NCBI RefSeq assembly: GCF_020520425.1
Contig: NC_079490.1
Coordinates: 3,100,001-3,164,000 of the forward strand
DNA: 64,000 nt
Reading direction: 5' to 3'
Source: Spinacia oleracea
Lineage: Eukaryota; Streptophyta; Magnoliopsida; Caryophyllales; Amaranthaceae
The notes beneath the pieces are model-generated. The model did not search any database, was not told the DNA's origin, and worked only from the letters and a program-made list of their open reading frames with translations. Position 1 is the stretch's first letter, and every line of letters begins with the position of its first letter. Position numbers and translations under genes: made by a program. This document shows positions 7,979-64,000 of this stretch, one piece after another.

Positions 7979-10900
7979 TTAGTGACGCTTTTTCCCACCA
8001 CGTCCACCACCGCCGCCGCCACCACCACCGCCCTTCTTGCCACCCTTCTTTTTACCACCCTTCTTTTTTCTCCCTTTGCTGGCCTTAGGAGGACCCCTAT
8101 CATCATCGTTCCTTGGAGGTGGAGCAGATTTTAGTAAATGTTTAACATCAAGAATTCCATTTCGGAAACGCCCTTCGCTTGATTTCAGCACTCCGTCTTC
8201 AGGCCTGCGCTTCTCTTCGGGTTTTTTGGTCCTTTTGATGAGATTTTCCCCACAATGTCCGATAAGTAACTCCTGCAGAAAGTTACTGTCAGCAAGTTTC
8301 CACTTTAAATTAACTACTCCCTCCATCCCAATTTATAGTCCCGTTTGACTAAAAACACGAGTTTTAAGAAAAGTGGAATATAGTACTTCGTATATGGGAA
8401 AGTGTATGGGAAAGTGGGAAGAATAATGTCCAAATAAGGAAACAGAACTATAAATTTGGGACGCCTGAAATAGAAAACAAGACTATAATTTTGGGACGGA
8501 GGGGGTAATAACAAAATCTAGCAAATTCATAACAGATTAAAGTTCATATCTGAAATCACAACCTGTTGCAACAACTTCTCTTCCTTCTTCTTTTGATTCT
8601 TCATCATTGGCCGTGCTACACTAAGTGGTAGTCTCTGTTTCTTAGGAGCCTTTTAACAGATAAACATAACATAATCGTTGTCAGCAAATGGTTCACTCAA
8701 AGAGTTCAGATTAGCATTAAAACACAAGGGATAAGTCAACATCCCTTACCTTTCCGCCCAATGAAACGACTTTCTGATTCTGCAAATTCTTCCTCTCTTT
8801 CCATGTCATATCAGAGGAGCCTGCAGTGTAACATAATGTTTAGTTACCAGCAATACATTTGAAAACCCGAAGATCTCAGTTTAGGAAGAATGTGAAAGCG
8901 TTACGGGAGCAAAAGGTGGTTACAGTGGGACTCTTTTGTGAAGAGTACTTAAGGAATCAAGGTATGATTATTAGGCTTAGAGTCAAGAGTATTATGAGTA
9001 AGAAAGTGTCACAATCTGATCAGGTTTGGTTTGCCGCTCTTTAGTTGTCAGTCAAATAGTTGTATTTTGGTTTTTGCCGGTTTGACTTGTACTATGTACG
9101 TTTCTTGGTTCTAGAGGGAATAGAGATCATCCTAGATGGTTTGTTTCCCCTTTAGTTCCCTGTTGTATGAAGTTGATCTTTTGAGAAATAAAATTGCTTG
9201 CTTACCGGAAAAAAAGAAAAAGAAAAACATTAGAACAACTCGCTAGTCTCAAGTTTAATTTAAGGTATAGTGTCCTTGGGATTCAGGAGTGAGGAGTATA
9301 GTCTAAGGCACACACGTTTCCGCAATATATAGATTTCAATTCATTAAAATTAATTTTAAGTTATGATTTGTCCTTGAATTCATTTTAGTGCACTATTTGT
9401 CGTATTTGTTTGTTGTCACTGATTTCCTATCAGTGGAAGATACGAATAAAACACAGCATCTTTACTATTTAGGGGTAACAATACATTCTTGTCGTACATT
9501 TTTTAGGCTTACATCTCTCACAATAAAACTTATTCACAGTGCTTTTGTAAAAGATATGTACCACATATGCCGCATCCTGCATCCCCCACCCCCTAAAATT
9601 CTAGTTGGATACTGAGAAACTAGAGAAAAAGGTACTTCATTACTCTGGCAGAATAGTTTCTATCATCAAAAGGCAAGCACTCAATTTCAACTTCCAAGGA
9701 CGGTAAAAAAACTAAAGTTCTTGCTCTTTGATTAGTCGGTTGCACTACCATTGTTCCCTTCGACAATTTCTATTATACAACCGGTCGGTATTGGTACTTC
9801 ATTACCCTAGCAGAACAGTTTCAATCATCGAATGTAAGCCAAGGCAGGCACTCACATTCAACTTCCAAGAATGTCAAAAACTTAGGCTCTGTTTGGCAAC
9901 TCATTTAAGGTGACTTAAATGATAAGATGCTGAAATTTTAAGCGAGCTTAAATGATTAGTTGTGTTTGATAACTACGTGAAATTAGATTTAAGGTGCAAA
10001 AAGTAGCTGAAATTGGAACGTTAATCAAACTAACGTTTGAAAAATAGGACTTGGAATTTCTTTGTTTTTAACTTTTTTTTATCCTTTCTACAATTTCATA
10101 TCTTCTGGTTCAAATCCCCTGGTGGACCGTAGTGCCCCAAGAACTATGCGGCGGTCAAGTAGGAAGTTGTATTCTATGGGAATGCAAGAGGAACTAAGCG
10201 TTGTGGTCGATTGTTAGGAACGTAACGGCGGTGCAGTGCTATGAGATGGCAAAAACTGAACCATCGGAAACCATATGCCGCCTGTGCCGGGGAAGGGTGG
10301 AAATAATTATTTTTAAACTGAGTAGAAATCCATTTAAAATTCAACTCTAACGAAACTAGATTAAGTTTTCCATTAGATCAATCGCATGGCGGATAGGCGT
10401 CAAAAGAAATGGAGGATTGGCTTCCATTTCTTGGTGAAGGTTGAAGAACCAGTATAACGGTATGTCCATCAACACACTTTACTCTTCCTTTTTCTTTTAT
10501 TTTTGTAAAACAAACTTTACTCTTCTGTTTGTAATACCACAAGTAATCACTCATGAATTACTCCGTGTATAATTATACACGTATACTGTAATTTTATTTG
10601 ATAAATATATATACTACTGTAATATACAATTCTCAAAAGTATTTTAAAATTTTCAGCTACTTAAAAAATAAGTTTTACCAAACAATGTACCTAATTAGTT
10701 ACCTTCTCGGTTCAGCTATTTATCAGCTTCAGTTCCTATCTTATCGATTTCAATTAACTTATCAGTTTCAGCTCTATTTCAGCTAGTTAGGTTCTTGCTC
10801 TTTGGTTAGTTGGTTGCACTACCACTGTTCCCTTCGACAATTTATATAAAACAACCGGTTGTATCATATGAAAAAAGCTAAAATAACAATCCCAATAGTC

Positions 10901-43609: not shown

Positions 43610-45024
43610 TGATTTTCGCTTCAGCTTTGTACTTCTTTGTTGCTTTGGTGTATGTTTTGCAGTGAAGTTTTGAGAATGTAGAAACTTGAGAGTTCGGGCT
43701 TAGTCCGAATTTGGTCGGTCTTTTATTTATTTTTACCATTCGGTTCACCTTTAGGGCTATTTCGGGGCGAGTTCTAAATGGATAGGTTTCAGTCCTCTCC
43801 CGATTATTGTTGCGGAGGATCGAACACGGAGTCCTCCCTAACCATTTCTTTGTTTGTTAATGGTTGTATCACCAAGGATACATGTAGAATGTAATCAACT
43901 ATGCTTAGAATAGATAGAGCAAATACCTTCTTTTTTGCTCTGTTTGGTTAATTGAATTTGACTGAAATTAACTTATCTAAATTTAACTGAACTTATTTGA
44001 ACGTAATTTTGCTGCAAAAAACCTTGGTTCTTGCCTTATTGGTGTATGTTTAAATAGATTAGCAATATCAAACAGATACCCACTATTTGATCCACTCGTA
44101 GTATATGAAATGAGCGGAACCTGAATCAAATTATTTTTTAGGTAGTGAGAGTCGTAAAGGGAAAGGCAATAAACATAAATTTTAATTCTTGTTGCAACCA
44201 TTATATTCGCTCACTTTAACTAAAAACCTCTCACGAAAATTTTGAACCAATTAAATTGAGACGAAAAGTATTATTTTTCATTTTTTATATGTTAGAGTTG
44301 TTGTAAAAAAAATGTAATACTAAGCTTTTGTCCTATGTGCTTGTATCTTGTGAACACGTGGACAACAAATATTTGAGCATACCTTGCAAAGTTGCAATTT
44401 ACAATAATCAATTAGATGGAGAACATTCTCGTCCTTCATTAGTAAATTGATATTGTCATGCGAATTTTAAATTTCTACACCCAACTAAACAAATTAGCTT
44501 TGGCATTACGTGTGTTATAAGTTTTTATGAAAATTGGAGTTTTATGTAACCAAACGGCCCTTACTGCGATTGATATTGGACTACTTTGATCAACATCAAT
44601 TTCTCAACATCCACTTCCACTTAAATAGGCAATTTTTCAGAAAAATGTTGTTGTTATGGAGACTGATTTCGGTTAAACGTTAGAAGAGCTCAAAATTTCT
44701 AACATACTCATTTCATGAAGTTATCAACAATATCCACACAAGTTTGTGAAAAACTTATTTTTCTCCCGGTTCTGCAACAAAACTCGCCAATTGAATTGTC
44801 GATTTTAGTTTAAGTAAAATCTCCAATTGTTATGAAAATGGACACGTCTTTATAAGCTGGAGAATTGAGTTTTGATAAATTTGATATAATGGGAAATGAT
44901 TTTGCGCAACCTACTACTGAGAGGAGAGTATGATGCATTTATAAGCCAGTGACAGATGTTCCTTATGGCTTGGGTGGGCATGGCCCTACAAGCAGAATTT
45001 TGATACTGTATATTTAGTTACTCT
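43610..45024. other. ECM29 promoter side and intergenic DNA
   Basis: The first 150 bp should contain the ECM29 5' UTR and core promoter; no clear TATA box was assigned. At 43790-43860 a minus-strand SINE-like fragment carries a B-box-like GTGTTCGATCC and flanking words shared with 62296-62400. At about 43940-44000 there are TTGACTGAAATTAACTTATC-type words related to the small MITE at 7356. The rest is unassigned. Confidence 0.5.
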
Positions 45025-45045
45025 CCCCCCCCCCCCCCCCCCCCC
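45025..45045. repeat. C21 homopolymer tract
   Basis: Twenty-one consecutive C, followed by ACAAAAAAAAG. The length is uncertain for technical reasons. Confidence 0.85.
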
Positions 45046-45611
45046 ACAAAAAAAAGTGTGTATAATTGTATAGATAACATAATATATTGCTTAATTTTTC
45101 TATTGGCCCCTCGTAAAACTGTTCAAGGTCCGCCACTCTAACAGCCCAAAGGACAATCCACACTAAAAACTTTGGAAATAGTGAGAATAACTCCTGATCA
45201 AGCTTATCCAAAAATCAAACTTCCATCACTTTATGCTATTGGATTCATAGTCCTTTGACATGAGATTTTTGTTTGATTTGGATAGATCTGTTTTAGTTGT
45301 TATTAAATATCTATTGTAAATGTATGTGATATTAATCAATCACATCTAGTATTTAGTATCCCCTAGAACTTCCATCGCCTTTTTTTTATTCAACTGAGAA
45401 AAAGAATTCCAAATAAAAAAAAGAACACACACAACCCAAACGAAAACTTCCGTAACAAAAATAGTAGCATAAATACTACGTATGAGAGTAATATTATAGA
45501 TATATAATCCCGTACAAATAAATATTTATACCCTTGTCCGAAGGGACTCCTAAATTTATTCTTAATATCTTCATTAAAAAATACACAAATACTTCGTAAG
45601 AGAGTAGAACG

Positions 45612-47482
45612 TTAATTGGGATAGCAGCAACATATTGCGTCATCAGGCATAGTCGTATTGTAACATCTTCCGCCTTTAGGGAAACCTTTCTCGTTGCAAA
45701 AGTCAAAACAGCTCTCGCTGCCTAAATTTTCGCATTGGGCAACGCAAAAGTGACTCGGCACATCAGATGCGAGAGATGAACTTGCAAATAAGGGCATAAT
45801 ACTTCCTTCAACTGAAAAATAAATAAAAAAAATTAACAAAGGAGATTGATTAGTTAATTTATAGTGATTGATTGACCCAAAGTGTTAAAAGTTCTCAAAT
45901 GATGAACAATTGTAAGAAAAGATGATGATAATGGAATCAATATTATCAAATGCTTAAGGTTATGGGTTCAAGACTGAATTGAGAAAATATCTTTTAACAT
46001 AATAGGAAAAATTCGTCAAAATCAATCAATCAATCATCATCAATCAATCAATACTATATACTAAAAGACACACCAGGAATGACACGTGTCATCTCCTGGT
46101 GTGTCCTTACATTTTTTTTAAATAAAACTTTAATTAAATAATCTTCTAAAATATCTAAATTTCTGATTTTTTATTACTCCGTATTTTTTTTTTCAAAATT
46201 ACGATTTCATGTGTATTATGGCAAGAATTTAACATAATATATTAATACTAATTTGAAAAATATATGTCAGGAAACAGTTACCTGATAAAGGTATGATAAG
46301 TTCTTTTCCCCAATTTAAGTATTTTTGTCGAAACCCTAAACACCTAATATTTCACTAATCAATTCATAATTCGAATAAATAATATTTTTCTCTAATTTTC
46401 CAACAACCCATTATAAAATTTTATATGATTTTGTTTTATTAAAAAATTAGTCAGAATAGAGAAAAAAATTATTTAGTCTCATCTGTGCGTTGCACGGGAC
46501 CTAGCCTAGTTATCTTATAAAATCGTGTTTTTTTTGTGAGAAAAGTACCTTATAAAAAGAATATTGTAATTAACTACTTTCTCCGATTCTTTTTAGTTGT
46601 AACACTTTGCTTTTCACGCTTGCAATATCTTGAACAATTGATGTATTTAATTACCGATAAGTAAAATATAAAAAAATTATTTTCGCAAAATATAAATTAA
46701 GAAGAATCTAACAAGATCCCACATGAATATTTTTTTTCCTAGAGTATAGATCATCAAAAATAAATAAAGTAGATTATGTTAATAGTGCAAAAACAAAGTG
46801 TTGCAACTATTTTTAAACGGAGGAAGTACCTTATAATAAATAAAAAATTATGTTGTAATATACTCCATTTGACCGAATTATGAACGTTGACTCGTAGTTT
46901 CGGGATTGAAATTACGATGTGCATCTCAAGTGCTATTTAATTAACCCCTTTCTGTGATATGCAACGTGAGATACACATAGTAAGTCACAACCCCAAAATT
47001 TTGATTTTACCTTCATAATCAACCAAAGATAACATCTTACAACATAAAATTTTATAAGTAGTTAATTACAACTTATTGCATTAACATAGCTTCTCGCAAA
47101 AATTTGGTTTTATAAGGTACGTTTTTGACAATTTTACCAACGTAAAAAATAGTTTCAATAGCTCCCCTATAAAGGGATTACTTCAAATAAATCAATAAAG
47201 CTAGTACGTATACTTTGTAATCAAACTATTATACTTTGTAACTATACTTTTTTTGGGTCAAAACTGTACATTAAAAATCGCGTGAAACAAATTATAACCA
47301 ACAAAAATACTCGGGGATTATAAATTTTTATCGTATTACGAACACGAGCAAGAAAATAGAATTAAAAAAAACAATCAATACCATATGAAAATATTAGAGA
47401 AATAGAATTAAACAAAACAATCATTACCATTGTTCGTGACAAGAAAAGCCAATAGGCAAACGAGCACAATTTCTTTCATCAT
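45612..47482 (-). CDS. Secreted defensin-like cysteine-rich peptide, 84 aa
   Basis: Two exons, 47482-47428 and 45811-45612, join in phase. The intron position, just after the signal-peptide region, is the usual one for plant defensin-like genes. Residues 1-18 are a signal peptide (MMKEIVLVCLLAFLVTNN). The mature part carries eight cysteines in the order C-x3-C-x7-C-x3-C-x10-C-x10-C-C-C, compatible with four disulfides. It lacks the GxC arrangement of classic antifungal defensins, so it belongs to the broad defensin-like (DEFL/LCR) class. Likely roles are defence or reproductive signalling, but none can be assigned. A TATA box lies at 47589-47582. A retrotransposon nest begins 47 bp upstream of that box. 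The 1.6-kb intron holds a Helitron-like piece and a Stowaway MITE. Confidence 0.87.
46050..46510 (+). mobile_element. Possible non-autonomous Helitron in the defensin-like gene intron
   Basis: The 3' end shows a GTGC-GTT-GCAC hairpin followed by GGGACCTAGCCTAGT, like plant Helitron termini (hairpin then CTAGT). The 5' end has TATACTAAAAGACACACC. Next to it is a perfect GACACACCAGGA inverted pair around ATGACACGTGTCAT. The canonical 5' TC is not evident. Confidence 0.4.
46577..46826. mobile_element. Stowaway-type MITE in the defensin-like gene intron
   Basis: It starts CTTTCTCCGATTCTTTTTAG and ends CTATTTTTAAACGGAGGAAG, with subterminal TTGTAACACTTTG/AAAGTGTTGCAA inverted. Flanked by TA. Confidence 0.8.
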
Positions 47483-47581
47483 TTTTGTAGAATGTAGAGT
47501 GGTGTGGATAATATTTTTCTTAATATTTGTGCTCAAATGTAATTTAACATAAGATGATGAACATGAAGAACATATTGCAGC

Positions 47582-47589
47582 TATTTATA
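47582..47589 (-). promoter_or_regulatory. TATA box of the defensin-like gene
   Basis: TATAAATA on the minus strand, 100 bp upstream of the ATG. Only 42 bp of native sequence separate it from the outer retrotransposon's target duplication. Confidence 0.6.
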
Positions 47590-47636
47590 CTCCAACAAAT
47601 TCTATTCACAATAAATGTAATTCATAAAACCTTATG

Positions 47637-47970
47637 TGTTGGGGTGTTAAAATGGGCCCACCATTTTAACCTAAAAGCCAATAAAATCCACTCAAGCCCA
47701 ATATCCCTTACAAGGCCTCAAAGGCCCAACAAAGGCACTATATATACCCCTCAAAGGGCAAGGTAAAGGGGTCATTCTCTAACCCTAGAGAAGCCACCCT
47801 ACTCTCTCTCCCCTAAACACCTCATTTTATACATCAATTGTACTGACTTGAGCGTCGGAGGCTCCGCCTCGGGGACCCCCCCTTGGCCCGGAGTTCATCT
47901 TGCAGGCACCGTACGTGATCGGAACTCAAGACATCAAGGACGCTCCTTCCATCGTTTCAACCCCGGAACA
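47637..47970 (+). repeat. 5' LTR of the outer element
   Basis: It begins TGTTGGGGTGTTAAAATGGG and ends CAACCCCGGAACA. A TATATATAC box occurs at about 47739. I count two differences from the 3' LTR (GGCCCAAC against GGTCCAAC, and CCGGAACA against CCGTAACA). Confidence 0.93.
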
Positions 47971-48131
47971 ATTTGGCGCCGTCTGTGGGGATCGAGAGCA
48001 ATAACCCATGAAAATCCACATTTTCATACTATTATGTTCATCCGCAAAAATGGCCGGAAATTTGAAATAGCCGACCAAAAATTACTGTTTGTCAACAAAT
48101 TACGTTATAATGGGTAGTGTGGTGACAAATA

Positions 48132-49543
48132 TGAAGGAAATAATGCCCTTGGTCCAAGTATGCATTCTATGTTAAGTCTAATAAATGCGGTTCAGTATTA
48201 ATTAACAAGTTAATAATTCAGTGAGATCAAGTGAGCTGAATGCCTAGCTAGAGGCCGCTTCAGTTCAAGTGGAATTAATTATATTAATCCACAGCTTACT
48301 CTTGACTGAACCCGTAGGGTCACACAAATAGTACGTAAACGGATCAAGTATTTAATGGCATTAAATACTCTATCTATGAATATTCGGAACCGACGGATCT
48401 TGGTTTCAGTGGGAGCTAAGATCGTCACAGGCAAGAAATGAATACTCCGGAAACGATGATATTGCCGGAAACGGAAATATGGATCGTATCGGAAATATAA
48501 ATATTATCCAAGTCGTAGATGTTGCCGGAAACGGAAACATGGTACGTATCGGAAAATATTATCGGAAATGGAAATATTGCCAGAATCGGAAATATTGCCG
48601 GAAACGGAAATATTGTCAGAATCGGAAATATTACCGGAATCGGAAAATAATTCCGGAAACGGAAATATTAAATATTTGTTCGAAACGGAAATTAATTCCG
48701 GAATCGGAAATATTAAATACTGTTCGTATCGGAAATGAATTCCGGAATCGGAAAATTTAATCGGAAGCGCATCGTACGAATAAGCATCGGACGAGGCCTG
48801 CCGGACGAGGCCCAGCACGAAGCCAGGCCATCGCCCAGCAAGCCAAGCGCGCCGCACAAACAGCCACGCCAGGCCCAGCGCAAGGCCAGGCCCAGCAGGC
48901 TGCGCAGCGCGCACAGCGCGCACAGCACGCGCAGCGCGCAGCGCGCGCGGGCGCTGCGTGGGCTGCTGCTCGCGCGCACGCATGGGGGCCCATCGTGGCT
49001 GCCGTGCGTGTGTGTGCAAGTGTTTGTGTTCGTGCACGTTTCCTAAAACATGCAGAGTTCGGTTAATGATTAAATTCCTAATTCTATTTGATAAATTAAT
49101 TAAATTAGAGTTCTTGTAGGATTCTAGGTTTAATTAATTTGTATCTGAATAGGATTTCGATTCCCTTTCCATACCCCTATAAATATGAGGCTAGGGCTCA
49201 CAATTTATAACAAGTTTCAAAGTATTCAAAAGTGAGTTTTTTGAGAGAAAATTAAAACACACATCTTGCTCATAAAGTGCCGAAATTTTCTAGTACCTTA
49301 AGGGCGATTCTAGTTGGTCAATCTTAAGGCGGATCCGGACGTGCTGTGGACTATCTACGGAGGGACGACACTTGGAGTCCTAAAGACTTGTTCTTGTTCG
49401 GTTCGGGCGCAGCTAGGGAGGGCACGCAACAAAGAGTATGCATCTAAATTATGCTATATGATTATGTGTAAATAATATGTTGTCCTGGGTTAATGGTTGT
49501 TTCCGCATGATCTATGTAATGTCATATGTATCATAACCTAACA
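48132..49543 (+). repeat. 5' LTR of the Copia element
   Basis: It starts TGAAGGAAATAATGCCCTTG and ends CATAACCTAACA. A region of repeated GGAAACGGAAATATTGCC-like words spans 48450-48760. A GC-rich CAGCGCGCACAGCGC tract spans about 48790-49000. A TATAAATA box lies at 49178-49185. Confidence 0.95.
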
Positions 49544-50279
49544 GTGGTATCACGAGCCCCTTATTATTTTCATAATCTAAATTGCATGAACATGGTTAAA
49601 TATTACAAATTTGCAAGAATTAAAAGGGGTGATTAATTTTCGTAATTGTTAATTAATTGCAAATTGCGTTTATTTAATTATACGTACGCAGTTTTTCGGC
49701 AGTTTCTTCGTTACTCATCCGAATTGAGTGATTTTTGTGTCAATTCCGCATGTAAAAGGCATTCTAAAATTTTGACAAAAGTAGTATTTTTCTGCCGAAC
49801 CCAGAATTCTCAAATTCGAAGCCTAACTATGACTTTTCGAAGGTTTTAGTTTTTCGAATGCAAAATTTCGTAAATTTAAGATGTTAAATTAAATATTTGC
49901 GATTCTTGTTGATAAATCTTGAATTTTTGATTGACCTACTGCATATGTTTAACAAGTTTGAATGCCTAGTCTTGTTAATTATGCAATCTAATTTGTAATT
50001 ATGATTAATTTGTTGAAAATTAGAATAATTTAGAATTAATTTGATTTTCATAATTAATTGTAATTTAATTAGAAACCTATGATTAAAAACCACCATAAAA
50101 ATTGTAAATTTATGATAAATTTAAAATTTTTATGACCTAGACTTGAAATCCATAACAATCGGAAATCAATTGGATAATAAATTTTCGATTTTTCGCCCTA
50201 AAATTATGAAATTAATATTATTTATTAATTTGTCATTAATTTTAAATATAAATTTTAAATTTTTTATGCGATTCGTTCA

Positions 50280-50920
50280 TAAAACTTGCACGCACGAAGC
50301 AATGGACGCTTCGTGTTACCCTTAAGGGGTGTTGTATAATGCGGGCATGCGACGACGAGCAAGGGAGCTCGTCGCCCGTGCGGCACGAATGCAATGAGCA
50401 AGGGCGTAGTGCACGAGCACAAGGCAGCAGCCCTGCCTTGTGTCGTGTGCCACGAGCAATGGACGAATGGGCATGGGCGAAGGGCGAGCCAAGGCAGTCG
50501 CGTGTGGGCAGCAAGCGAGCTGCGCCACAACGCGCGCTGCCTCGCACAAGAGCGCGCAGCCTCGCGCGCAGCGAGCGCAAGCTCGCGTGCCACGAGCGCT
50601 GCGCCCAGCATTGCTCGCGCGCACAACGAGCGAGGACTCGCGCGCACAGCCAGCATTGCTCGCGCGCACAGCGAGCGATGTCGCGCGCCCAGCGAGCGAT
50701 GTCGCGCGCCCAGCGAGCGGTGTCGCGCGCGCACTGCGAGCGATAGCTCGCGTGCGATGAGCGCTGGCGCGCGCAGCGAGCACCAATGCGTGCGGAGGCT
50801 TGCGATGGGGATGCAGCAGCTATGCGACGAGCGCATGGGCTGCGCGCACATGGCCAGCAATGGCTGTGTGCGTGCGGCCCATGGGCGTGCAACGCGTAGG
50901 GTGTTTGCGTTACGATTAAA
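50280..50920 (+). repeat. GC-rich CGAGCG/GCGCGC low-complexity island in the Copia leader
   Basis: About 640 bp of very GC-rich sequence built from imperfect GCGAGCGATGTCGCGCGCCC-type words sits inside an otherwise AT-rich interior. It lies between the 5' LTR and the first pol traces, in the position of leader or gag. Every frame on both strands is open over long stretches because of composition, not coding. Confidence 0.85.
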
Positions 50921-53900
50921 GATCGTTTTGAATGTTTAATTTGAAAATTTCAGTTCACGTAATTTTAATTAATTTTAAAATTAATAATTTAAATTATTTT
51001 CTTGGATTTTAATTTTGAATATTGTAATTATAATAAATTTTATTTATTCTAATTATTTTACTAAAATTAAAATCATGAATTAATTTAAATAACGACTGAA
51101 ATTAAATTAAACTTTTTGGATTCAATTATAAATTTATATGAGCTTTAAATTTTAATTAAATTTGTATGTTTCCGGTTAGACTAGAAATACATTTTTATGT
51201 TTAAAATTGGTAAAGCATATGAATTTATTGGTTTAAGTGGGAGCGCTTTTTAGTCATAAACTCTTGATTAGGTCTACAAATCCTTAAGGTTAAAACAACT
51301 TGATTAGAATTAATAAGGACTGAATAATTGGTAGATTATTGGTGCCCTTGATTAATTGCTGCAAATATTTACGTGATGCATAATGTGTTTTACTAACCAG
51401 CTATGTGGGCCATTCATGATAATGAATGGGTGAATGGTATATATTGTATATGTACTGTTTTGCAGGTTATGAAGTGACTAGTATGGCCCAAATAGGATAG
51501 AAAATATGGTCTGCGTACCATTAATTTGAATGTAATTGGTCTGAAGTACCAAAGTTATTTTTCAATTCAAATATGGTCTGCGTACCATCAAATAGTTGTA
51601 ATTAGTTATAGCTTATCCTATTTGAAGAAAATGGTGCCTCCCACGGAGATTTTCAAGACGGACTTTGAAGTTAAAGCTTCAAGATGAAGTCGGGCCATAC
51701 TAGATCACAAATATCTTATGCATGTTTTAAGTTATTTATTGCTTTTAAATATGTCTTAAAATGCATGAGATCAAAAGCTTGATTATGTTGCATGATTAAG
51801 GATTTTAGTTCACTTAAAATCTAACCAACATAGTAAGAGCTTTAAGTTCCAAACTTAAAAATTGAGTTAAAAGGTGCCATGCCAAAATATACACTTGCTT
51901 GGATATCCTTTACATCAATCTAGTAATAGTTTTCGCTCAGCGAGGTGTTACTTATTGGTCCTAAAGGGGCAAGGTACACAAATAATTGTGAGTACATGTT
52001 AGTTTTGGTGAAACTCAACGATATAAGTAAGGAGTCCTTTTATGTCGTGGCAAAATCGATAGGTTTACCTAACAAGTTCTTAGACGTACCTATCAACCAA
52101 GAGTAGTTTCTAGACTATTAGCAAAAGGCTTTTGCTTACCTAAGATGTTTTAGGATTAAGTCGACAAACTGTGCTTAGTTCTTCAATGATTTTAGGGTCT
52201 TGGAATCATTTTATTCACACCTGCCGGAACAATAAAATCGAATAAAATGCTAATAACTTGTTTGAATTGCATGGTTGCTTTAATTTCAAGTTATTATTCA
52301 TGATAAATGTTTAGACTTTGCATGCTTCAATGTATGTTTTAATTATTGTTTATAATTAAATATCTTGCACTGCAATAAATCCTTTTAGAAAGGTAACAGT
52401 AAATTTCCTCGATTGGTAGTGAATCCAAGAACGATTCACGGAAATGAGAGAAAATGAGCAATTTAAAATGTACGTTTCTTATATCGACTTTTATGGTTGT
52501 TTTCGAGAATCAAAATCGAATGGCAAACCGATTGGTGATTGTGAATTCAAAATACACTGTAGTTTTGAGATCATAAAGCATTGAGTTTAATACGCTCAGC
52601 TTTACCAATGGTTAACAACCTAATATCTTTGTCCATTTAATTCTCGAATGAGTCTAGTCCCTAGACATTCGAATAGATCGATGCTTAGAGAACTTTAGAA
52701 GCTTCTGGTAAGATCATCTAGTTGAAACAGAATATTCAACATAAAATGGTAAAGAACCTTGTTGGTGACATTGGACATGTCTAACAAAGTCAACACTAAA
52801 GAATTCAATTCTTAAGACTATAAGAAAGGGTACAAGAAATAGGAAAACAAAGGAACACATGAAAGGAATTTACGATTCCGTTTCTACCTATAAGTTAATG
52901 TTTAAAGAGAAGTAACCTAGCAATCAAACTTCCTTGGTATCATATACCGCTTGAGGTTCTTACTTCGATAATAACTCAAACAATGGAAGCTAGGATACAC
53001 TAATGACCTACAAGTGGGAAATGAAGCATGGCAATGCTACATTAGTTGTAGGGTCATCTAGTTTGTTTTAAGTCCTTTCAAAGGCTGGAACTTAATGGCT
53101 ATTTTGTTCCATAATCAGCATACCTAAATTTCTGCTTCAAACACAGAAAGACTCACATTCAAAGAAAAACAAAAACAATGTTTGTTTGTTTATTTGAATG
53201 AAATGGTCAATTACAGGTCGAGTCAATATGCTTGATTAAAACAAGCAACTCTTTAAAGAACTTTACTAGGTTCAAATCAACCCCTTGATTTGAGTTCCAC
53301 AAATCTTTGGCATTGTTGCTTAGACCATATCAACAAGTTAACATTCATAAGCTCTATTTTGATGGACTTCTGAAAGTTGATTGATTTCTAGATCATTTTA
53401 AGACAACTAGTCTTACTTGTTGAAAGTAACAAAAGATATGAACTATTGTTAGAACGCCTAGACAATGGAGTTCAAAGCTAAAGAAAGATTTTATGACTTT
53501 ATTATTTCACATGGATTTGAGTGAATATAGGTTTATTTACTCAAATGTGATATAAGTTGAATCTGTTTGGCTAGTTCAAAGATTCAGAAGTATAAAATCC
53601 ACTTGGTAAGAAATCATAAAGATCTAGGTTAGATCATGTTAATGATTACTTGAGACCAAATATGATCATCAATGATTGTGTGTTGTAATTTCACAATCTA
53701 GCTCCATAAGATATGGCATATCTACGTTGGAATGATCGAAGTCAATTAGTACTTGATTCGATCAATGATGAATCATAAAGACTTTTCCTATAATTTCTAA
53801 AACAAAATGCTCAACTACCACCAAACTAAACCAAATTCGTCAAAGCTATTGAAAAGTAATTTCAGAATATCTTTTCATAATATATCTAAAGAGTTCCTAA

Positions 53901-54589
53901 ACTCAGTGGGAGCTTAGTGTTTGTTATTCAACAAACTAAGGCCCAAGTATAGATATATGTATCATTGTGATTTATTCAAATGAGACACAGGGTATTGTTT
54001 CTACCACGAATTTTTGAGAACATAATGTTTGTTTGCTCGAAATAATGTCCTTTTGAAGATTCGTTTCCAAAATGACAAGTGGGAGAAAATAAACCTCGAA
54101 AGTTTTCGAGGCGAACAACAAACATAAACGGACATTCCGGAGGCTTTTCGAAGTGCTTCAGAAAATCCGAACTAATTCTTTAAGGACTTTAGAAGTGGCT
54201 TTAAATAATAGACTTCTCTTAGAAGACTTTACAAGTGCTTCAAAGAGAACAGAATATTCAAAGGACTTTCAAGTGGCTATTGATATTCTGTTGTTTGATG
54301 TTCTATACCCAAGTAGGCATAGAGTTCAAGTCACTGAAACTATGAGATTCTTCTATAGTGAAGAAACATGGAGTTCAGGTCCCTGAAACTATGCAATTCT
54401 TCTATTAGATAGTGAAGAAACCTACAACTTGCAGTCAAACTATTATCATGTAGATTAATGAGTTTGTGACTTGTAAGAAAGCTATGACGAAATATAGATT
54501 CCCTAAAATGGTTAGAGGCCATATATAGACTATATGTTTAAATGGTTAGAGGCCATAAAACATACTCAATGTTTTGATGACAAAATTGA

Positions 54590-55250
54590 AATTTTGTTGA
54601 TTTGCAAGAATAGTTTCACACCTATTGGTTGCAAGTTTGTTTTAAGGATAAAAACCATCAAACATGGAATTGTGTCCACACACAAAGCTAGATTAGTTGT
54701 TAAAGGTTAAAAGAAAATTCATGGCATGGATTGTGTTGAAACCTCATGCAAAATCGTAATGCTTAAGTCTATAATTCAAGCAATGATTGCATATTGGTAC
54801 ATATGGCAATTGGATGACAAAACGTATTCCTCAATCAAATGTTGGAATATAATATGTACATGGTATGTCATAGAATTTGTGCATCCAAATAAATGCTTGA
54901 AAAGGAAAGCTAGCTTATAAAATCTAAGTACAGATTTAAGCAAGCAATTGGGAATTGGAACTGTATTTTAAGTGAAGCTAATAAGCATTTTAGTTTCATA
55001 AAATATACATGATTCTTATAGATATATAAGAAGTTTAGTGGGAGTACATAAAAACTTAATTGGTCCTATGTGTATCACACACATATCTCTCTATTGTAAA
55101 ATAACATTCAAATGCTAATGACTTAGATTTGAGATTATTCATCAATGATGGACCATGGCGAAACTTAGTACATACTGGGTATTAAGATCTATTTACAAAG
55201 ATCTTATGATATTGTTTTGGATTAAGTAATGGCATTTACTAAATCAAACA
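54590..55250 (+). pseudogene. Copia reverse transcriptase remnant
   Basis: Ordered Copia RT landmarks are readable across frame shifts: a degenerate GCKFV (for GCKWV), HKARLVVKG, HGMDCVET, VMLKSI, WQLDDKTYSS (for WQMDVKTAFL) and FVHPNKC. A degenerate YILGIKIY (about 55165-55195) follows. Numerous stops and deletions make it non-functional. Confidence 0.8.
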
Positions 55251-57142
55251 CGAAAGACTCCATTGGAGATATTCGAACCATATGAATAAATCTAAGTAAA
55301 GGATGTTTGAACTATGTATAAGCATTTACTAAGTTAAACATCAAAGAGTCTAAATGAGATTCTTAACCTATATTATATGTCAAAGAATTTAGCTGAATTT
55401 AGTATCTACTGAAACTAGATAAGCTAAGGTTACATGAATAGAATTCAATTGGGAAATATTCTGCAAAAGAATTTATCATGTATGATATAATATGAGGATC
55501 GCCAAAAACGTATCGTATGACTTTAGGCATGACGAACATATACCAATCTCTATTGATCTAAGTAAAGATCAACTAGATTGAGATCAAGAATACTTATGGT
55601 ACTTGAAAAGGTACATAGGAATAGTTCTTGATTCAAGGAAATAAAGATATGCTAAATATTGATGCTACACGCATAAACACTGGCAAAGGATCAAGCAAGA
55701 CCCTTTGGAGTTAACCATTGACAAGGACGAGCTAAAGAGCATCGTGTTTCGAAATGGCAACATGGGTTGGAGACCATGAGTTGTTGCGTGGGAAATTAAA
55801 ATAATAATTTCTATGTTCTAAGATATAGTTGGAGAGTCTTCCACATATCTATGAACTGCTTGGATAGGTAAATCCAAACAAAGCATCACTAGCAACCTAT
55901 ACAGTTGAAGTAAAAGTAATTATTGCCTAAGAAGCAATAAAACAGGGTTGTTTAAAGTTCTTCACTGAACTTGGGTAGATCACCTATCTGCTGGCTTGAT
56001 GGTTCTTCATTGAAAAATGCGTAGAACCACACTTGAAGCAAGAAAAACGTCTGCTAACTTGATGGTTCTTCATTGCAAAATGAGTAAAACCACAATCGAA
56101 GTAAGAAAGACTAGATCACATAATAAACAAACTCGAAAATATCTTATCATCATATCTCAAAGAACATTCGATGAAAAGGATGTTAAGATTGGCAAAGCAT
56201 GATAACTAAACCTATGCAACAAGTGAGAAACAACACTCACATTGTAGCACTGGAAATCAAGCATAGCTTTGAATTCCATGAATTGTTTTAGAAGATGGGT
56301 TTGAGGCCCATGGTTATAAAACATTGGGGTTGAACATTTATCATATATGAAATGTATTTTTCATATTCCATTTAATCTTGGTTTAGTATTAAATGATGAG
56401 TCCCTTCAAATTTGACGAAATATTCAAGATAGACTGTCAGGACCAGTCCTGTGACTAAGAAATGTCTATCAAGTGAACTTGAATGTCAAAGGTTGAAAAT
56501 GGTCCCTAGTCGGAGTTTTCAATAAAATTGGACGCATAGAAAACGTTAGACGACTAGAATGCAAGATGACTAGTAGTTCTGTTTCTTGAACTATGTGGAC
56601 ATGGCAATGTCATAATCATTTGCATAGATACTTACTTTGGGAAGACTAGTATCGGACAAGACCTATGAAACTTTACTGTAAGAGATGAAAATCTGTCATA
56701 AGTAAATTTCATTAAAATTATTAGACACTAAATCCTCAATACCTGAGTGATTTGAGATTACTTGTTTGAGAACTGGTTGCTTTGACGTTGACCAACCGTC
56801 GCACCGTAAAAGGAGGCTATAAAGGCAACGCTCAGGTAATCACCTATCAAACGAAGTCTAATCTCAAGATCGCAAGATTGGGATTGTCCTCCCATAAATC
56901 GGGATGAGATGCTTAAAAGTTGTACAAGGCCACTCGGAGAGCTAGAAACTGTGAAATGCATGGCCGTGCTCGGATGAATCATAGGCTATGATTATCTGTT
57001 TATTTGATCAGTTGAACTCTGAAACCGAGGAACACCTCTGGACGTAATAAGGATGACAACTCTTACCTTATGTTCAAGAGCAAGCATCGAGCGACAAAGG
57101 AATTAGGAAATGCACACTTGTCCCTAAGGACAAGTGGGAGAC

Positions 57143-58554
57143 TGAAGGAAATAATGCCCTTGGTCCAAGTATGCATTCTATGTTAAGTCTAATAAATGCG
57201 GTTCAGTATTAATTAACAAGTTAATAATTCAGTGAGATCAAGTGAGCTGAATGCCTAGCTAGAGGCCGCTTCAGTTCAAGTGGAATTAATTATATTAATC
57301 CACAGCTTACTCTTGACTGAACCCGTAGGGTCACACAAATAGTACGTAAACGGATCAAGTATTTAATGGCATTAAATACTCTATCTATGAATATTCGGAA
57401 CCGACGGATCTTGGTTTCAGTGGGAGCTAAGATCGTCACAGGCAAGAAATGAATACTCCGGAAACGATGATATTGCCGGAAACGGAAATATGGATCGTAT
57501 CGGAAATATAAATATTATCCAAGTCGTAGATGTTGCCGGAAACGGAAACATGGTACGTATCGGAAAATATTATCGGAAATGGAAATATTGCCAGAATCGG
57601 AAATATTGCCGGAAACGGAAATATTGTCAGAATCGGAAATATTACCGGAATCGGAAAATAATTCCGGAAACGGAAATATTAAATATTTGTTCGAAACGGA
57701 AATTAATTCCGGAATCGGAAATATTAAATATTGTTCGTATCGGAAATGAATTCCGGAATCGGAAAATTTAATCGGAAGCGCATCGTACGAATAAGCATCG
57801 GACGAGGCCTGCCGGACGAGGCCCAGCACGAAGCCAGGCCATCGCCCAGCAAGCCAAGCGCGCCGCACAAACAGCCACGCCAGGCCCAGCGCAAGGCCAG
57901 GCCCAGCAGGCTGCGCAGCGCGCACAGCGCGCACAGCACGCGCAGCGCGCAGCGCGCGCGGGCGCTGCGTGGGCTGCTGCTCGCGCGCACGCATGGGGGC
58001 CCATCGTGGCTGCCGTGCGTGTGTGTGCAAGTGTTTGTGTTCGTGCACGTTTCCTAAAACATGCAGAGTTCGGTTAATGATTAAATTCCTAATTCTATTT
58101 GATAAATTAATTAAATTAGAGTTCTTGTAGGATTCTAGGTTTAATTAATTTGTATCTGAATAGGATTTCGATTCCCTTTCCATACCCCTATAAATATGAG
58201 GCTAGGGCTCACAATTTATAACAAGTTTCAAAGTATTCAAAAGTGAGTTTTTTGAGAGAAAATTAAAACACACATCTTGCTCATAAAGTGCCGAAATTTT
58301 CTAGTACCTTAAGGGCGATTCTAGTTGGTCAATCTTAAGGCGGATCCGGACGTGCTGTGGACTATCTACGGAGGGACGACACTTGGAGTCCTAAAGACTT
58401 GTTCTTGTTCGGTTCGGGCGCAGCTAGGGAGGGCACGCAACAAAGAGTATGCATCTAAATTATGCTATATGATTATGTGTAAATAATATGTTGTCCTGGG
58501 TTAATGGTTGTTTCCGCATGATCTATGTAATGTCATATGTATCATAACATAACA
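57143..58554 (+). repeat. 3' LTR of the Copia element
   Basis: Same length as the 5' LTR (1412 bp). The visible changes are ATATTG for ATACTG at about 57730 and CATAACA for CCTAACA at the very end. A TATAAATA box lies at 58189-58196. Confidence 0.95.
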
Positions 58555-58849
58555 AAATAATGTTGCTACAAATTGTTGCTACAGATCGTTACTACATTTT
58601 GGTGGCCCAGTAGCCTCAAGGCCAAGTAAAGATGCTTTCCCACTCTCCCAGATCTGCAAACTCATTTTCAGAATAAAGAGGATTCATTTTGCTTGAGTAC
58701 AGATTTTTGGAGCCAGTAACAGCTCACGCGTGAAAGTTATGAATTTGGAAATAAAGCAAGTTTCCACAACTCAGACTCAACTGAGCCCACAATCACCTTG
58801 CACGATTGGTAACAACAGCATACATTGGCATGATGGCACTACATCACTT

Positions 58850-60252
58850 CCGAAGTATAAATCCGAGCCGATTTTAGAAGCACGTTCTTGAACAGATCTT
58901 CGGATTTGAAGACCGAGGTTAAAAATCGCTCCGAGATTACAACTCGAACAGATGTTACAATCCGAGCCGATTTTAGAAGCACGTTCTTGAACAGATCTTC
59001 GGATTTGAAGAGCGAGGTTAAAAATCGCTCCGAGATTACAACTCGAATCGACGTTACAATCCGAGCCGAAGTAAAGAAATCGCTCCGAGATTACAACTCG
59101 AACCGATGTTACAATCCGAGCCGATTTTAGAAGCACGTTCTTGAACAGATCTCCGGATTTGAAGAACGAGGTTAAAAATCGCTCCGAGATTACAACTCGA
59201 ATCGACGTTACAATCCGAGCCGAGGTAAAGAAACCGCTCCGAGATTACAACTCGAACAGATGTTACAATCCGAGCCGATTTTAGAAGCACGTTCTTAAAC
59301 AGATCTCCGGATTTGAAGAACGAGGTTAAAAATCGCTCAAAGATTACAACTCGAATCGATGTTACAATCCGAGCCGAAGGAAAAAAGCCGCTCCGAGATT
59401 ACAACTCGAACCGATGTTACAATCCGAGCCGATTTTAGAAGCACGTTCTTGAACAGATCTTCGGATTTGAAGAGCGAGGTTAAAAATCGCTCCGAGATTA
59501 CAACTCGAATCGACGTTACAATCCGAGCCGAAGTAAAGAAATCGCTCCGAGATTACAACTCGAATCGACGTTACAATCCGAGCCGAGGTAAAGAAACCGC
59601 TCCGAGATTACAACTCGAACAGATGTTACAATCCGAGCCGATTTTAGAAGCACGTTCTTAAACAGATCTCCGGATTTGAAGAACGAGGTTAAAAATCGCT
59701 CAAAGATTACAACTCGAATCGATGTTACAATCCGAGCCGAAGGAAAAAAGCCGCTCCGAGATTACAACTCGAACCGATGTTACAATCCGAGCCGATTTTA
59801 GAAGCACGTTCTTGAACAGATCTTCGGATTTGAAGAGCGAGGTTAAAAATCGCTCCGAGTTTACAACTCGAATCGACGTTACAATCCGAGCCGAAGTAAA
59901 GAAATCGCTCCGAGATTACAACTCGAACCGATGTTACAATCCGAGCCGATTTTAGAAGCACGTTCTTGAACAGATCTCCGGATTTGAAGAACGAGGTTAA
60001 AAATCGCTCCGAGATTACAACTCGAATCGACGTTACAATCCGAGCCGAGGTAAAGAAACCGCTCCGAGATTACAACTCGAACCGATGTTACAATCCGAGC
60101 CGATTTTAGAAGCACGTTCTTGAACAGATCTCCGGATTTGAAGAACGAGGTTAAAAATCGCTCCGAGATTACAACTCGAATCGACGTTACAATCCGAGCC
60201 GAGGTAAAGAAACCGCTCCGAGATTACAACTCGAATCGATGTTACAGTCCGA
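58850..60252 (+). repeat. Complex tandem repeat family A in the outer element
   Basis: Alternating long (about 104 bp) and short (about 55 bp) units all end with CTCCGAGATTACAACTCGAA and GTTACAATCCGAG. Long units carry CCGATTTTAGAAGCACGTTC and ACAGATCTYCGGATTTGAAG; short ones carry CCGARGTAAAGAAAYCGCTC. Higher-order blocks of several units repeat (for example 59360-59640 and 59730-59960). Confidence 0.93.
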
Positions 60253-61040
60253 GCTGAAGGTAAAATCCGAAGGTAAAAATCCGAAGGACAAAACCGAGCC
60301 GAAGGTAAAAATCCGAAGGATAAAACCGAGCCGAAGGTAAAAATCCGAAGGATAAAACCGAGCCGAAGGTAAAAATCCGAAGGATAAAACCGAGCCGAAG
60401 GTAAAAATCCGAAGGATAAAACCGAGCCGAAGGTAAAAATCCGATGTTACAAAACCGAGCCGAAGGTAAAAATCCGAAGGATAAAACCGAGCCGAAGGTA
60501 AAAATCCGAAGGATAAAACCGATCCGAAGGTAAAAATCCGAAGGACAAAACCGAGCCGAAGGTAAAAATCCGATGGACAAAACCGAGCCGAAGGTAAAAA
60601 TCCGAAGGATAAAACCGATCCGAAGGTAAAAATCCGAAGGACAAAACCGAGCCGAAGGTAAAAATCCGAAGGATAAAACCGAGCCGAAGGTAAAAATCCG
60701 AAGGATAAAACCGATCCGAAGGTAAAAATCCGAAGGACAAAACCGAGCCGAAGGTAAAAAATCTGAAGGACAAAACCGAGCCGAAGGTAAAAATCCGAAG
60801 GACAAAACCGAGCCGAAGGTAAAAATCCGAAGGATAAAACCGATCCGAAGGTAAAAATCCGAAGGACAAAACCGAGTCGAAGGTAAAAATCCAAAGGATA
60901 AAACCGAGCCGAAGGTAAAAATCCGAAGGATAAAACCGATCCGAAGGTAAAAATCCGAAGGACAAAACCGAGCCGAAGGTAAAAATCCGAAGGACAAAAC
61001 CGAGCCGAAGGTAAAAATCCGAAGGACAAAAATCCGAAGG
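60253..61040 (+). repeat. Tandem repeat family B, 32-bp unit, about 24 copies
   Basis: The unit is CCGAAGGTAAAAATCCGAAG plus GAYAAAACCGAG, 32 bp, with scattered variants (GATCC for GAGCC, CAAAGG, and one unit with an extra A at about 60757). Its start CCGAGCCGAAGGTAAA resembles the family A junction CCGAGCCGAAGTAAAG, so B probably arose by local amplification of that junction. Confidence 0.95.
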
Positions 61041-61186
61041 TAAAACCCGAGCCGAGATTACAACTCGAACCGATGTTACAATCCGAGCCGAGGTTAAAAT
61101 TCTGAGCTGAAATCGACTTTCACTTGGAAGTGATCAAAATCAAAACCCAACCCATTTTTCAAATAGAATTGGGTCTGGGGGGCATT

Positions 61187-61520
61187 TGTTGGGGTGTTAA
61201 AATGGGCCCACCATTTTAACCTAAAAGCCAATAAAATCCACTCAAGCCCAATATCCCTTACAAGGCCTCAAAGGTCCAACAAAGGCACTATATATACCCC
61301 TCAAAGGGCAAGGTAAAGGGGTCATTCTCTAACCCTAGAGAAGCCACCCTACTCTCTCTCCCCTAAACACCTCATTTTATACATCAATTGTACTGACTTG
61401 AGCGTCGGAGGCTCCGCCTCGGGGACCCCCCCTTGGCCCGGAGTTCATCTTGCAGGCACCGTACGTGATCGGAACTCAAGACATCAAGGACGCTCCTTCC
61501 ATCGTTTCAACCCCGTAACA
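61187..61520 (+). repeat. 3' LTR of the outer element
   Basis: It matches 47637-47970 over 334 bp with two visible differences and is followed directly by TTATG. Confidence 0.93.
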
Positions 61521-61525
61521 TTATG

Positions 61526-62809
61526 TATTTACCATTCATCGATTTTATAATTATGGTATTTATTGATTATTATATACGTAGTACATAATTATTTTAATTC
61601 TATGCTAATTTATTTCTTTTTTAGAGATCTCTACATAATAAGTGTGTATCTTACTATAGTTGTTTTGATTTTATGCTGATTTTTTCCATAGTAGGTTAAT
61701 TTACAAACATATGGAATAAGTAAGAAACTCTACAAAAAAGGTAAAATGTCAATAATTACTTCGGGAATTATACAAAATATGGAGTACGTATTAAGGTGCG
61801 TTTTATTCACCCGATTTTCACTTATTTTTTTCTGAATTATATGAACTTATCCAAATTTATTAGAACTTACTTATTTTGGTTATAAAGTTATATTTGCTCA
61901 ACCCTTGTTTTTTCTGAACTTATCTTATCTGAATTTATCTGAACTTAACTAAACTTGTCTGAACTAATTTTTCCTGAAATAAGTGAAAATAAGATGAACA
62001 TAACATAGCCTAATTTGAAAAATCTTATGTGTACCCATATTGGCCAGATACAAGGATTGTGGGATAACTTGTTAGTTAGAGCTTTCCTCCCGATTTCAGG
62101 CGATTTTGTGATCGATTTTCATCCCCACCATTATAGCTCATTTGCATCAAAAATAAAATATGGGCCAGGTACACCCAATCAAAGTTAAAACATTTTTAGT
62201 AACTTGGTTCTCTTTAAATGAACAACCATTAAGTCGAAAATACGTACACCACATCACAATAATAAGGTTCAGAAAACCAATTGTTTGTTGGATCAGTGGT
62301 GATTGAGGCTGAACTTGGTAGGGAGAACTCCGTATTCGATCTCCCACAACCACAATTGGGAGGGGACTGTAACCTATCCACTCAGAACTCGTTCCAAATC
62401 CGTATTAGCTCTAAGGGTGAATCGATGGTACATCCCCCCCAGAAAAAAGATAGAGTTCAGAAACGTACGTTATGTTAGCCTTTATTTTCACTTTTTCGGG
62501 AATAATAAATTCAAATAGGTTCAAATTAAATAAGTTCGAGAAAATAAGAGTTACTTACATATATTTTATAACAAAATAAATTTTGATAAGTTTTAAGCTA
62601 AGTTTAATTATATTCAGAACGCACCAATGCTTCATACACAATATTACAATAATAATAATAATCAAGCTTTACAAGAAGAATTACAAGTAAACTAGTACAC
62701 TACTATATTACATGTGAATCATGAACGTATGTGTACAAAAGATCCAAATACATATGAAGAGCTTTAAATAGTGTATGAGAATGTAGTAAAAGAAGGAAAA
62801 AAAAAAGTA
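61526..62809. other. Intergenic DNA with small MITE and SINE-like pieces
   Basis: A MITE-like fold-back at 61795-62010 has ends GCGTTTTATTCACC / AACATAACATAGCC and repeated CTGAACTTATC words; it is related to 7356-7513. A SINE-like fragment at about 62296-62400 carries a tRNA-style stretch (GTGGTGATTGAGGCTGAACT, then B-box-like GTATTCGATC). No gene is seen. Confidence 0.5.
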
Positions 62810-63162
62810 GGAAAATTTGGTAATATTAATCCAACCTTTTGCCGATTTTCTTTTATTAAGCCCAGCTATGACATATTTTTTAATAATCCCACCTTTACCA
62901 CCCAGCGTCTTTTATTGGGCCCAACACGTCATAAACCTATTGTCGGCGGTAATATATCCCTACGTGGAAGTACTCTCTCTAGATGTATTCAGTCATCATC
63001 ATCAATTCATCACCATCTCGATGATTTTTTCACCAGTTATCGGTCACTTAAGCCCAATAAAAGTCGTTGGGTAGTAAAGGTGGGATTATTAAAAAATATG
63101 TCGTAGGTGGGATTAATAAAAGAAAACCGGCCAAAGGTTGGATTAATATTACCAAATTTTCC
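62810..63162. mobile_element. Mutator-type fold-back MITE with perfect 9-bp target duplication
   Basis: It starts GGAAAATTTGGTAATATTAA and ends with the reverse complement. The arms pair over about 110 bp and carry AATCCAACCTTT and AATCCCACCTTTA words. The 9-bp duplication AAAAAAGTA lies at 62801-62809 and 63163-63171. The 9-bp duplication and long arms are the MULE signature. It ends 42 bp from the stop codon of the phytocyanin gene, so it probably lies within or beside its 3' UTR. Confidence 0.93.
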
Positions 63163-63204
63163 AAAAAAGTATGGCCAACACTAAACTAGCAATCTCCTTA
63201 ATAA

Positions 63205-63800
63205 CTAAAGAATTAGCAAAAGTACACCAATCAAACTAACAAAGAACATAGGCATAAATATAGCACCATTATTGGACTTTTTAGTATCATCATCCTCCTC
63301 ATCACTACCACTAGTACTATCCTCGGGAATGTTCTTGGGGTGGTTAAAATCGGAAGATATGTTGGTATCTGGCACTGATTGATCATCCCCTGAGTCGGGA
63401 TTTGCATCTGGGCCGGGAGCAGAGTCTTCCGCTGAGGTGGGAGTAGACCTGGTTATCGGGCGGGTCGGGTCAGGGTCGGGGCGGGTCAAAAGAGGGTCGG
63501 GAGTGGAGCCCACGGCGAAATCAGGGTTGTCTCTAAGGCTTGGGGGCAACCCTTGACCGTGAGTCACATTGATAGAAAACTTTTGACCATTCATACATTG
63601 CTCTCCATCATAATCCCCTGAGAAAAAGTATGAAACCCCTTCTTTCATTAGGGGAACGTGTACCGTTATAGGGCGTATAACGGTAGAGTTGGGGTCGATG
63701 CTCGACCATTGCACATTGTCGTCGCCTTGAGAGTCGCAGGAATTGTATGTAGTTGAGTTGAATGTTTGGATTACTGTATGGTTGCTATCGGTGTTGAAAA
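63205..63800 (-). CDS. Early nodulin-like GPI-anchored phytocyanin, 3' exon (partial)
   Basis: One exon of 197 full codons follows a TGCAG acceptor at 63801. Exon 1 (signal peptide and first half of the cupredoxin fold) lies outside the window. The visible half has HTVIQTFNSTTYNSC, then GVSYFFSGDYDGEQCMNGQKF, the second cysteine loop of the phytocyanin fold. A Pro/Ser/Asp-rich, probably O-glycosylated spacer of about 80 residues follows, then a C-terminal hydrophobic tail (AIFMPMFFVSLIGVLLLIL) typical of GPI-anchor signals. The usual copper ligand His in the GHC motif is absent (GEQC here), so it should not bind type-1 copper, as in early nodulin-like proteins. Likely site: plasma membrane or cell wall. 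The 63801-64000 stretch is intron. Confidence 0.87.
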
Positions 63801-64000
63801 CTGCATGGAAATAATAGTGTTATACAATATGATGAGTAAGTTATTGTGTAGCACCGCCTTATGCTCATAAGACTGCTAATGTAATAATGTCAACATAACT
63901 TAACTATTAACAAGAAAATCATAACTATTAACACAAAAAATTCATAATTGTTAATACGAAACCTTGAAATATCAAGGCGAAATTTAACTATAAATCCAAA

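Follow-up and report, generated by a model that had tools for sequence, protein, structure and literature searches.

A young non-autonomous Copia element in spinach that has its ends in common with an intact class of the same family

Background

The best described counterpart of the element treated here is RLC_Angela of wheat, a Copia family in which dead elements are similar in size to the autonomous ones, have coding sequences full of stops and frameshifts, and share long terminal repeats (LTRs) with them; the LTR tree conflicts with the interior tree, and a change of partner has been proposed (PMC9744471). The spinach element, 10.4 kb in length including its LTRs, lies in a window of 64,000 nucleotides of the Spinacia oleracea genome (C4:3100001–3164000) and is referred to below as the window copy. 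We interpret it as a young insertion of a non-autonomous class, N, of an LTR/Copia family, which would be supplied in trans by an intact class, A, of the same family (probability roughly 0.87).

Partnerships of this sort are reported from several plants. An autonomous/nonautonomous partnership through LTR swapping was reportedly described in soybean by Du et al. in 2010, and Dasheng of rice is said to be a non-autonomous LTR element with RIRE2 as its putative autonomous partner. The spinach family belongs to the kind known from wheat RLC_Angela, with two differences. Non-autonomous wheat copies are more than 85% identical to autonomous ones in DNA (PMC9744471), whereas the middle of the spinach N elements barely aligns with class A, the relics reaching 66–78% DNA identity in short stretches. 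Furthermore, the spinach class A has two strongly different gag genes, and such a pair in the autonomous class is not mentioned in those parts of the wheat account that are drawn on here (PMC9744471). In barley, the Gag-less Copia element BARE2 is packaged in BARE1 particles (PMC3735527). There packaging has been demonstrated, whereas for spinach N it is deduced, and BARE2 lacks Gag while the rest may be translatable, whereas in spinach N the whole coding region is dead. During bursts, members of Onsen in Arabidopsis recombine in the LTR and in a coding segment, in a manner that fits template switching (PMC5668417); that recombination is among family members, while the spinach case brings together a dead class with an intact one, and two different gags. 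The commonest Copia lineage reported in spinach is Angela (PMC6337768).

Two interior classes between common ends

Copies were sought in the spinach genome (894.2 Mb, 242 contigs) with a 600-base LTR probe, which gave 925 first-look candidates, 40 of them scored. These 40 full-length rows represent 29 places, namely the window copy, 10 further LTR pairs and 18 single hits. Four of the 10 further pairs enclose an interior like that of the window copy along its whole length, indels aside (class N); the other six share with it only the first 2.75 kb and the last part, and have a different middle of about equal length (class A). The 18 single hits, typed with 601-base probes, comprised 7 N, 10 A and 1 neither, giving 12 N, 16 A and 1 neither for all 29 places together. 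One place (L062) was considered as a third pol relative and rejected, as it aligns to the 3' part of the interior and matches no pol piece.

An uninterrupted gag-pol frame of 1342–1360 codons is present in four of the six class A copies, and one of these frames, searched in pieces, hits the families Retrotran_gag_2, zf-CCHC, gag_pre-integrs, rve (this match being below the curated cut-off), SH3_retrovirus and RVT_2, in Copia order. No frame of at least 150 amino acids (aa) starts in the middle of any of the five whole N copies, the window copy included. A preliminary description of the locus, made from the letters of the window, had proposed a non-autonomous lineage mobilised in trans by a related active element, and had suggested looking for a partner with the same LTR and primer binding site (PBS) and an intact pol. 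Class A is such a partner: the sampled N copies are without an intact gag-pol, and the autonomous relative has the same LTR, PBS and polypurine tract (PPT). The PBS, TGGTATCACGAGCC, is the same in 14 of the 17 copies read, A and N alike, and the PPT, ACAAGTGGGAGAC, is identical in both classes. The three PBS variants are TGGTATCAGAGCC, in one A and one N copy, and TGGTATCAAAGCC, in one N copy (L015, L011, L072).

Both classes are young insertions. With indels left aside, the paired LTRs differ at 2, 3, 7, 1 and 7 sites within the five whole N copies and at 6, 0, 0, 5 and 0 sites within five of the A copies; in the sixth A copy the 3' LTR is broken. A perfect 5-bp target-site duplication (TSD), each copy's own, flanks 10 of these 11 copies, including all five whole N copies; in one A copy it presupposes an LTR end two bases past the aligned part; the eleventh is the A copy with the broken 3' LTR. 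In a further set of six whole N copies, every element has TG...CA ends and is flanked by a perfect 5-bp duplication of its own. The individual duplications reject the idea that N spread by DNA duplication or ectopic conversion, without retrotransposition, to which we give almost no credence, even though N and A elements adjoin at 2 of the 18 single-hit places, the second class lying immediately upstream. These neighbours, in the same orientation, lie on C6 near 9.28 Mb (L033, L034) and on C1 near 75.27 Mb (L059, L060), and are perhaps nested or recombined.

Some irregularities were seen at the LTRs themselves. In five copies (e2, e3, e5, e6 and e10) one LTR is 34 to 202 bases longer than the other, with 0–7 mismatches in the pair; such indels may be formed at insertion or shortly thereafter. 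In a class A copy on C3 near 14.300 Mb (L026) the 3' LTR stops after ~1009 bases and runs directly into the start of another LTR.

With probes of equal length (1201 bases) from the reverse transcriptase part, the first look returned 3740 candidates in class N against 816 in class A, counts that are unscored and rough. Among the 40 hits scored for each, all those of A round to 100% identity, while those of N range from 97 to 100%, the latter value being the window copy itself. With the rough nature of the first-look counts in mind, this suggests that N outnumbers A, and that A was amplified more recently and more uniformly.

Lesions older than the insertion

The preliminary description had noted two 1412-bp LTRs with two differences and a perfect AAATA duplication, and had concluded that the insertion is young. 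Both points hold: the alignment of the LTRs takes in all 1412 bases of each and contains 2 mismatches and no gap. At the rate of 1.3e-8 substitutions per site per year used in a survey of spinach (PMC6337768), 2 differences in 1412 correspond to ~54,000 years, a figure that gives the scale only. LTR identity dates the last jump and nothing earlier.

The interior has a longer history. Stops were scanned in the two frames that cover the relic from 54516 onward, 54516–54920 (which runs ~95 bases past the pol match) and 54974–55216, and were compared with 23 other N copies, comprising the 19 best hits after the window copy to the 1201-base N probe and the four whole copies. The window copy has 9 in-frame stops in these frames. 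Eight of them recur as stops in at least 19 of the 23 other copies, six of these in every one, and the ninth recurs in 3. All 40 scored hits of the N probe are at least 97% identical across the full 1201 bases. Stops at the same positions across N copies mean that most of these lesions predate the jumps of the copies. The sister copies with the same internal stops that the preliminary description had advised seeking thus exist, and its claim that the interior was defective before insertion is borne out.

LTR conversion is known in plants, and by this route an element that was intact at insertion and decayed later could look young. The chance of this is negligible in the present case, and the stops common to the 23 other N copies, among copies with different target duplications, rule out decay after insertion. 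The middle is mostly 95.5–97.4% identical among five N copies with different TSDs (single blocks 93.5–98.7%). The element into which the window copy inserted (see below) is also young, with 2 mismatches in its 334-bp LTR. Gene conversion, named in the preliminary description as another possible source of LTR identity, is unnecessary, given the youth of this host element and the individual perfect duplications in 10 of 11 copies.

Divergence within class N is also unevenly placed. The N middles differ by a mean of 3.0% and 3.7% in two parts. Over the LTR and leader, followed up to the boundary in 14 steps of 300 columns, these copies differ by only 0.3–2.7%. Private substitutions of the window copy number 39 in 3.47 kb of middle, yet its own LTRs differ at only 2 sites, so that the divergence of the middle is older than the last jump. 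This pattern fits an N lineage that jumped repeatedly while its ends were renewed, and class N is a large, long-lived and old non-autonomous lineage. Two recognised categories of non-autonomous LTR element differ from it: in large retrotransposon derivatives (LARDs) the interior is non-coding from the start, and in terminal-repeat retrotransposons in miniature (TRIMs) it is very short. Assignment to either was rejected, since the element is 10.4 kb long and retains pol relics.

Exchange of ends between the classes

Informative sites were analysed in the LTR and 5' leader of the 11 whole copies. There are 70 such sites in LTR plus leader, and another 5 in the final 0.76 kb of the interior; not one of them separates N from A. 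LTR haplotype a occurs in four N copies (the window copy among them) and two A copies, and haplotype b in one N and four A copies. When class labels were set against distances, the observed value was reached by 56 of 462 label sets for the LTR and by 96 of 462 for the leader, compared with 1 of 462 for the class-specific stretch.

A third LTR type, c, extends this pattern. Eight N copies, from the ten nearest to the window copy in the middle, comprise three of type a (one partial), four of type c and one for which the search gave no LTR. A type-c probe taken from an N copy returned 6287 first-look candidates, and 13 places, corresponding to 20 of the 40 full-length rows, were checked; 7 were N, 2 A, 1 undecided and 3 neither. 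Type c was considered as a separate family, 11–12% diverged throughout, and this was rejected, as most of its differences from type a are concentrated in the middle 600 bp of the LTR. It is therefore a variable LTR segment that distinguishes type c. One interior class is thus found on several LTR types, and these types are also present in the other class. Judged by these comparisons, the ends have evidently been exchanged between the dead class N and the intact class A.

Proposed supply in trans by class A

The mechanism that we propose begins with transcription of N, probably from the LTR that it has in common with class A. The N RNA would be packaged by way of the common leader into particles of class A Gag and primed at the common PBS; reverse transcriptase and integrase, both of class A, would then make the DNA copy and insert it. 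Template switching in mixed particles could hand the current LTR and leader from A to N, and the N middle, being useless, would drift while the ends stay current. Class N would then be a genomic parasite of a parasite, its ends kept current by a working relative and its middle decaying for longer than the life of any single copy. As for the trans-mobilised lineage of the preliminary description, the lineage with common lesions and its intact partner are both present, and use of class A proteins by N is the most likely means of its movement.

Several observations weigh against this interpretation. The last 0.76 kb of the interior carries a weak class signal, with 7 of 462 label sets reaching the observed value and a difference of 0.15%. 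Type-c places belonged to neither class in 3 of 13 cases and were undecided in 1 of 13. The sample was selected by similarity to the LTR or middle of the window copy and is biased towards window-like LTRs. Between intact A copies of one kind, the later pol piece speaks for a working class A, with 10 of 14 and 5 of 6 differences at third codon positions, which fits purifying selection on it, but in the earlier piece (gag, protease and part of integrase) third positions account for 4 of 6 differences in one comparison and for no more than 7 of 15 in the other, and selection there is not clear. Finally, the pol relics of N are only 26–42% identical in aa to the pol of A, a different Copia family may thus have served as the original helper, and N could still be mobilised by such a family instead of class A. 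We allow this a small chance. Class A has the LTR, leader, PBS and PPT of N, the mixture of haplotypes across classes suggests packaging together, and class A also has open frames and young copies. Supply by class A remains our preferred reading.

Origin of the dead middle

The middle of class N may be its own former gag-pol, which drifted unconstrained while class A renewed the ends, and to this we give about an even chance. The pol relics are collinear with class A and the total length is similar. Between the window copy and A, all aligned stretches taken together show no excess of third-position differences (23/101, 20/102 and 23/102 by codon position), and several gaps are not divisible by three. 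Pulling the other way, differences in the reverse transcriptase stretch of the window copy climb with codon position (8, 12 and 16 of 47), and in the other four N copies they amount to 25–29% at third positions as against 18–25% at first and second positions. This excess, in aligned stretches that are short, hints that some of the divergence dates from a time when the genes still worked. Alternatively, the middle may descend from the gag-pol of a different Copia family and have been attached to the present ends by template switching, a reading that we hold tentatively, at somewhat under even odds. The boundaries between N and A lie just upstream of the likely start codon of A and near its stop, and two exchanged gags occur in the same family. 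At the downstream boundary, similarity between N and A comes back weakly at 56203, close to where the final 75 bp of the class A frame lie, and 25 residues of the window copy near 56202–56276 match the end of class A pol at 44% identity.

Two gag genes in class A

Class A itself carries two kinds of gag, each a capsid plus zinc-knuckle module and each present in three copies (L009–L010, L017–L020 versus L015–L016, L025–L028); they are called gag 1 and gag 2 here. In a comparison of two A copies, the frames are identical over the first 37 residues, through MANNN, the first five codons of the likely start. Beyond this, gag 1 and gag 2 share 82 of 242 aligned residues, or 34% (287 columns with gaps), and from just before the protease similarity is restored, 90 of 92 residues being shared again. 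DNA outside gag is 97–100% identical between both kinds of A, and in the later pol piece one gag-1 copy and one gag-2 copy have 3 differences in 2298 bp. No Pfam gag family matched gag 2 at 1e-3, though a CCHC-like motif can be made out in its sequence. Probes found gag 1 at 5 further places and gag 2 at 2, and one place with a type-c LTR has gag 1.

The family might then be a set of freely reassorting modules (three LTR types, two gags and two middles) combined through template switching, and the gag swap could represent an escape from N in an arms race. We consider this broader idea unlikely. If it were true, the new capsid would package N RNA less well while pol was kept the same. Two capsid genes on the same ends and pol make the role of packaging choice in the contest between intact and dead elements testable. 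The gag exchange in the autonomous class is the part of the spinach case for which no description was found; a literature search by term found none for it or for chimeric elements in spinach, which is no proof of absence.

Structure of the window copy

The features of the window copy and of its host element are listed in Table 1. The window copy has the hallmarks of Ty1/Copia elements in its TG...CA LTR pair, short duplication, PBS and PPT. The Copia gene order, with integrase before a Copia-type reverse transcriptase, is seen in class A, and in the window copy it is recognised through similarity of the relics to A only. The PBS resembles what we take to be the initiator-methionine tRNA site, with one base extra.

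Table 1. Coordinates of the window copy, its parts and the surrounding host element (positions within the window)
Feature	Position	Strand	Remarks
Host LTR element, with the window copy nested in its interior	47637..61520	+	LTRs 47637–47970 and 61187–61520; duplication TTATG
Target-site duplication, left	48127..48131	+	AAATA, directly abuts 5' LTR
5' LTR	48132..49543	+	1412 bp, TG...CA; 2 mismatches to 3' LTR, no gaps
5' leader common to class A	49544..52296	+	95.0–97.5% identity, gaps counted, over 2.75 kb
Primer binding site (PBS-like)	49545..49558	+	TGGTATCACGAGCC
Class-specific dead middle (class N)	52297..56380	+	largely unalignable with class A; ends approximate
Relic of integrase end and first part of reverse transcriptase	53943..54824	+	26% aa identity to class A pol
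Relic of later reverse transcriptase, another frame	54974..55216	+	42% aa identity to class A pol; 7 in-frame stops
Tandem duplication, 62/63 bp, inside dead middle	55987..56108	+	
Interior 3' end common to class A	56380..57142	+	~0–2% divergence per 100-base step
Polypurine tract	57130..57142	+	ACAAGTGGGAGAC, identical in A and N
3' LTR	57143..58554	+	1412 bp
Target-site duplication, right	58555..58559	+	AAATA

Compared with the intact Copia pol of the same genome, the pol of the window copy consists of fragments only. The preliminary description had seen it as broken by both stops and deletions. The stops are real, as there is no usable frame and there are 9 in-frame stops in the two frames scanned, but the deletions are not reflected in the overall size, the interior not being shortened: LTR-to-LTR spacing is 9011 in the window copy and 9056–9187 in the six class A copies. 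The stop-free pieces listed for the + strand are 62–97 aa long, and the middle of the window copy holds no open frame of at least 150 aa starting within it. Six open reading frame pieces of the window gave no Copia family in Pfam (E<=1), only 2 weak and irrelevant matches. As had been said of it, gag is unrecognisable; with either class A gag as query, no match was found in the middle at E<=0.1. A scan of 44000–64000 against Rfam gave no family reaching gathering scores.

Within the leader, the stretch 50242–50949 is GC-rich and has 21-bp and 45-bp repeats. Open frames run through it on either strand, and A and N copies resemble each other in these frames. The stretch is likely not coding.

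The host element

Without the nested copy, the host element is ~3.5 kb long, with LTRs of ~334 bp, and has a primer-like site, TGGCGCC. Its only longer open frames consist of tandem-repeat sequence, and it is possibly a second non-autonomous element. Dense tandem arrays (18-, 55-, 154- and 363-bp units, and 32-bp units) at 58860–61045 occupy much of its interior.

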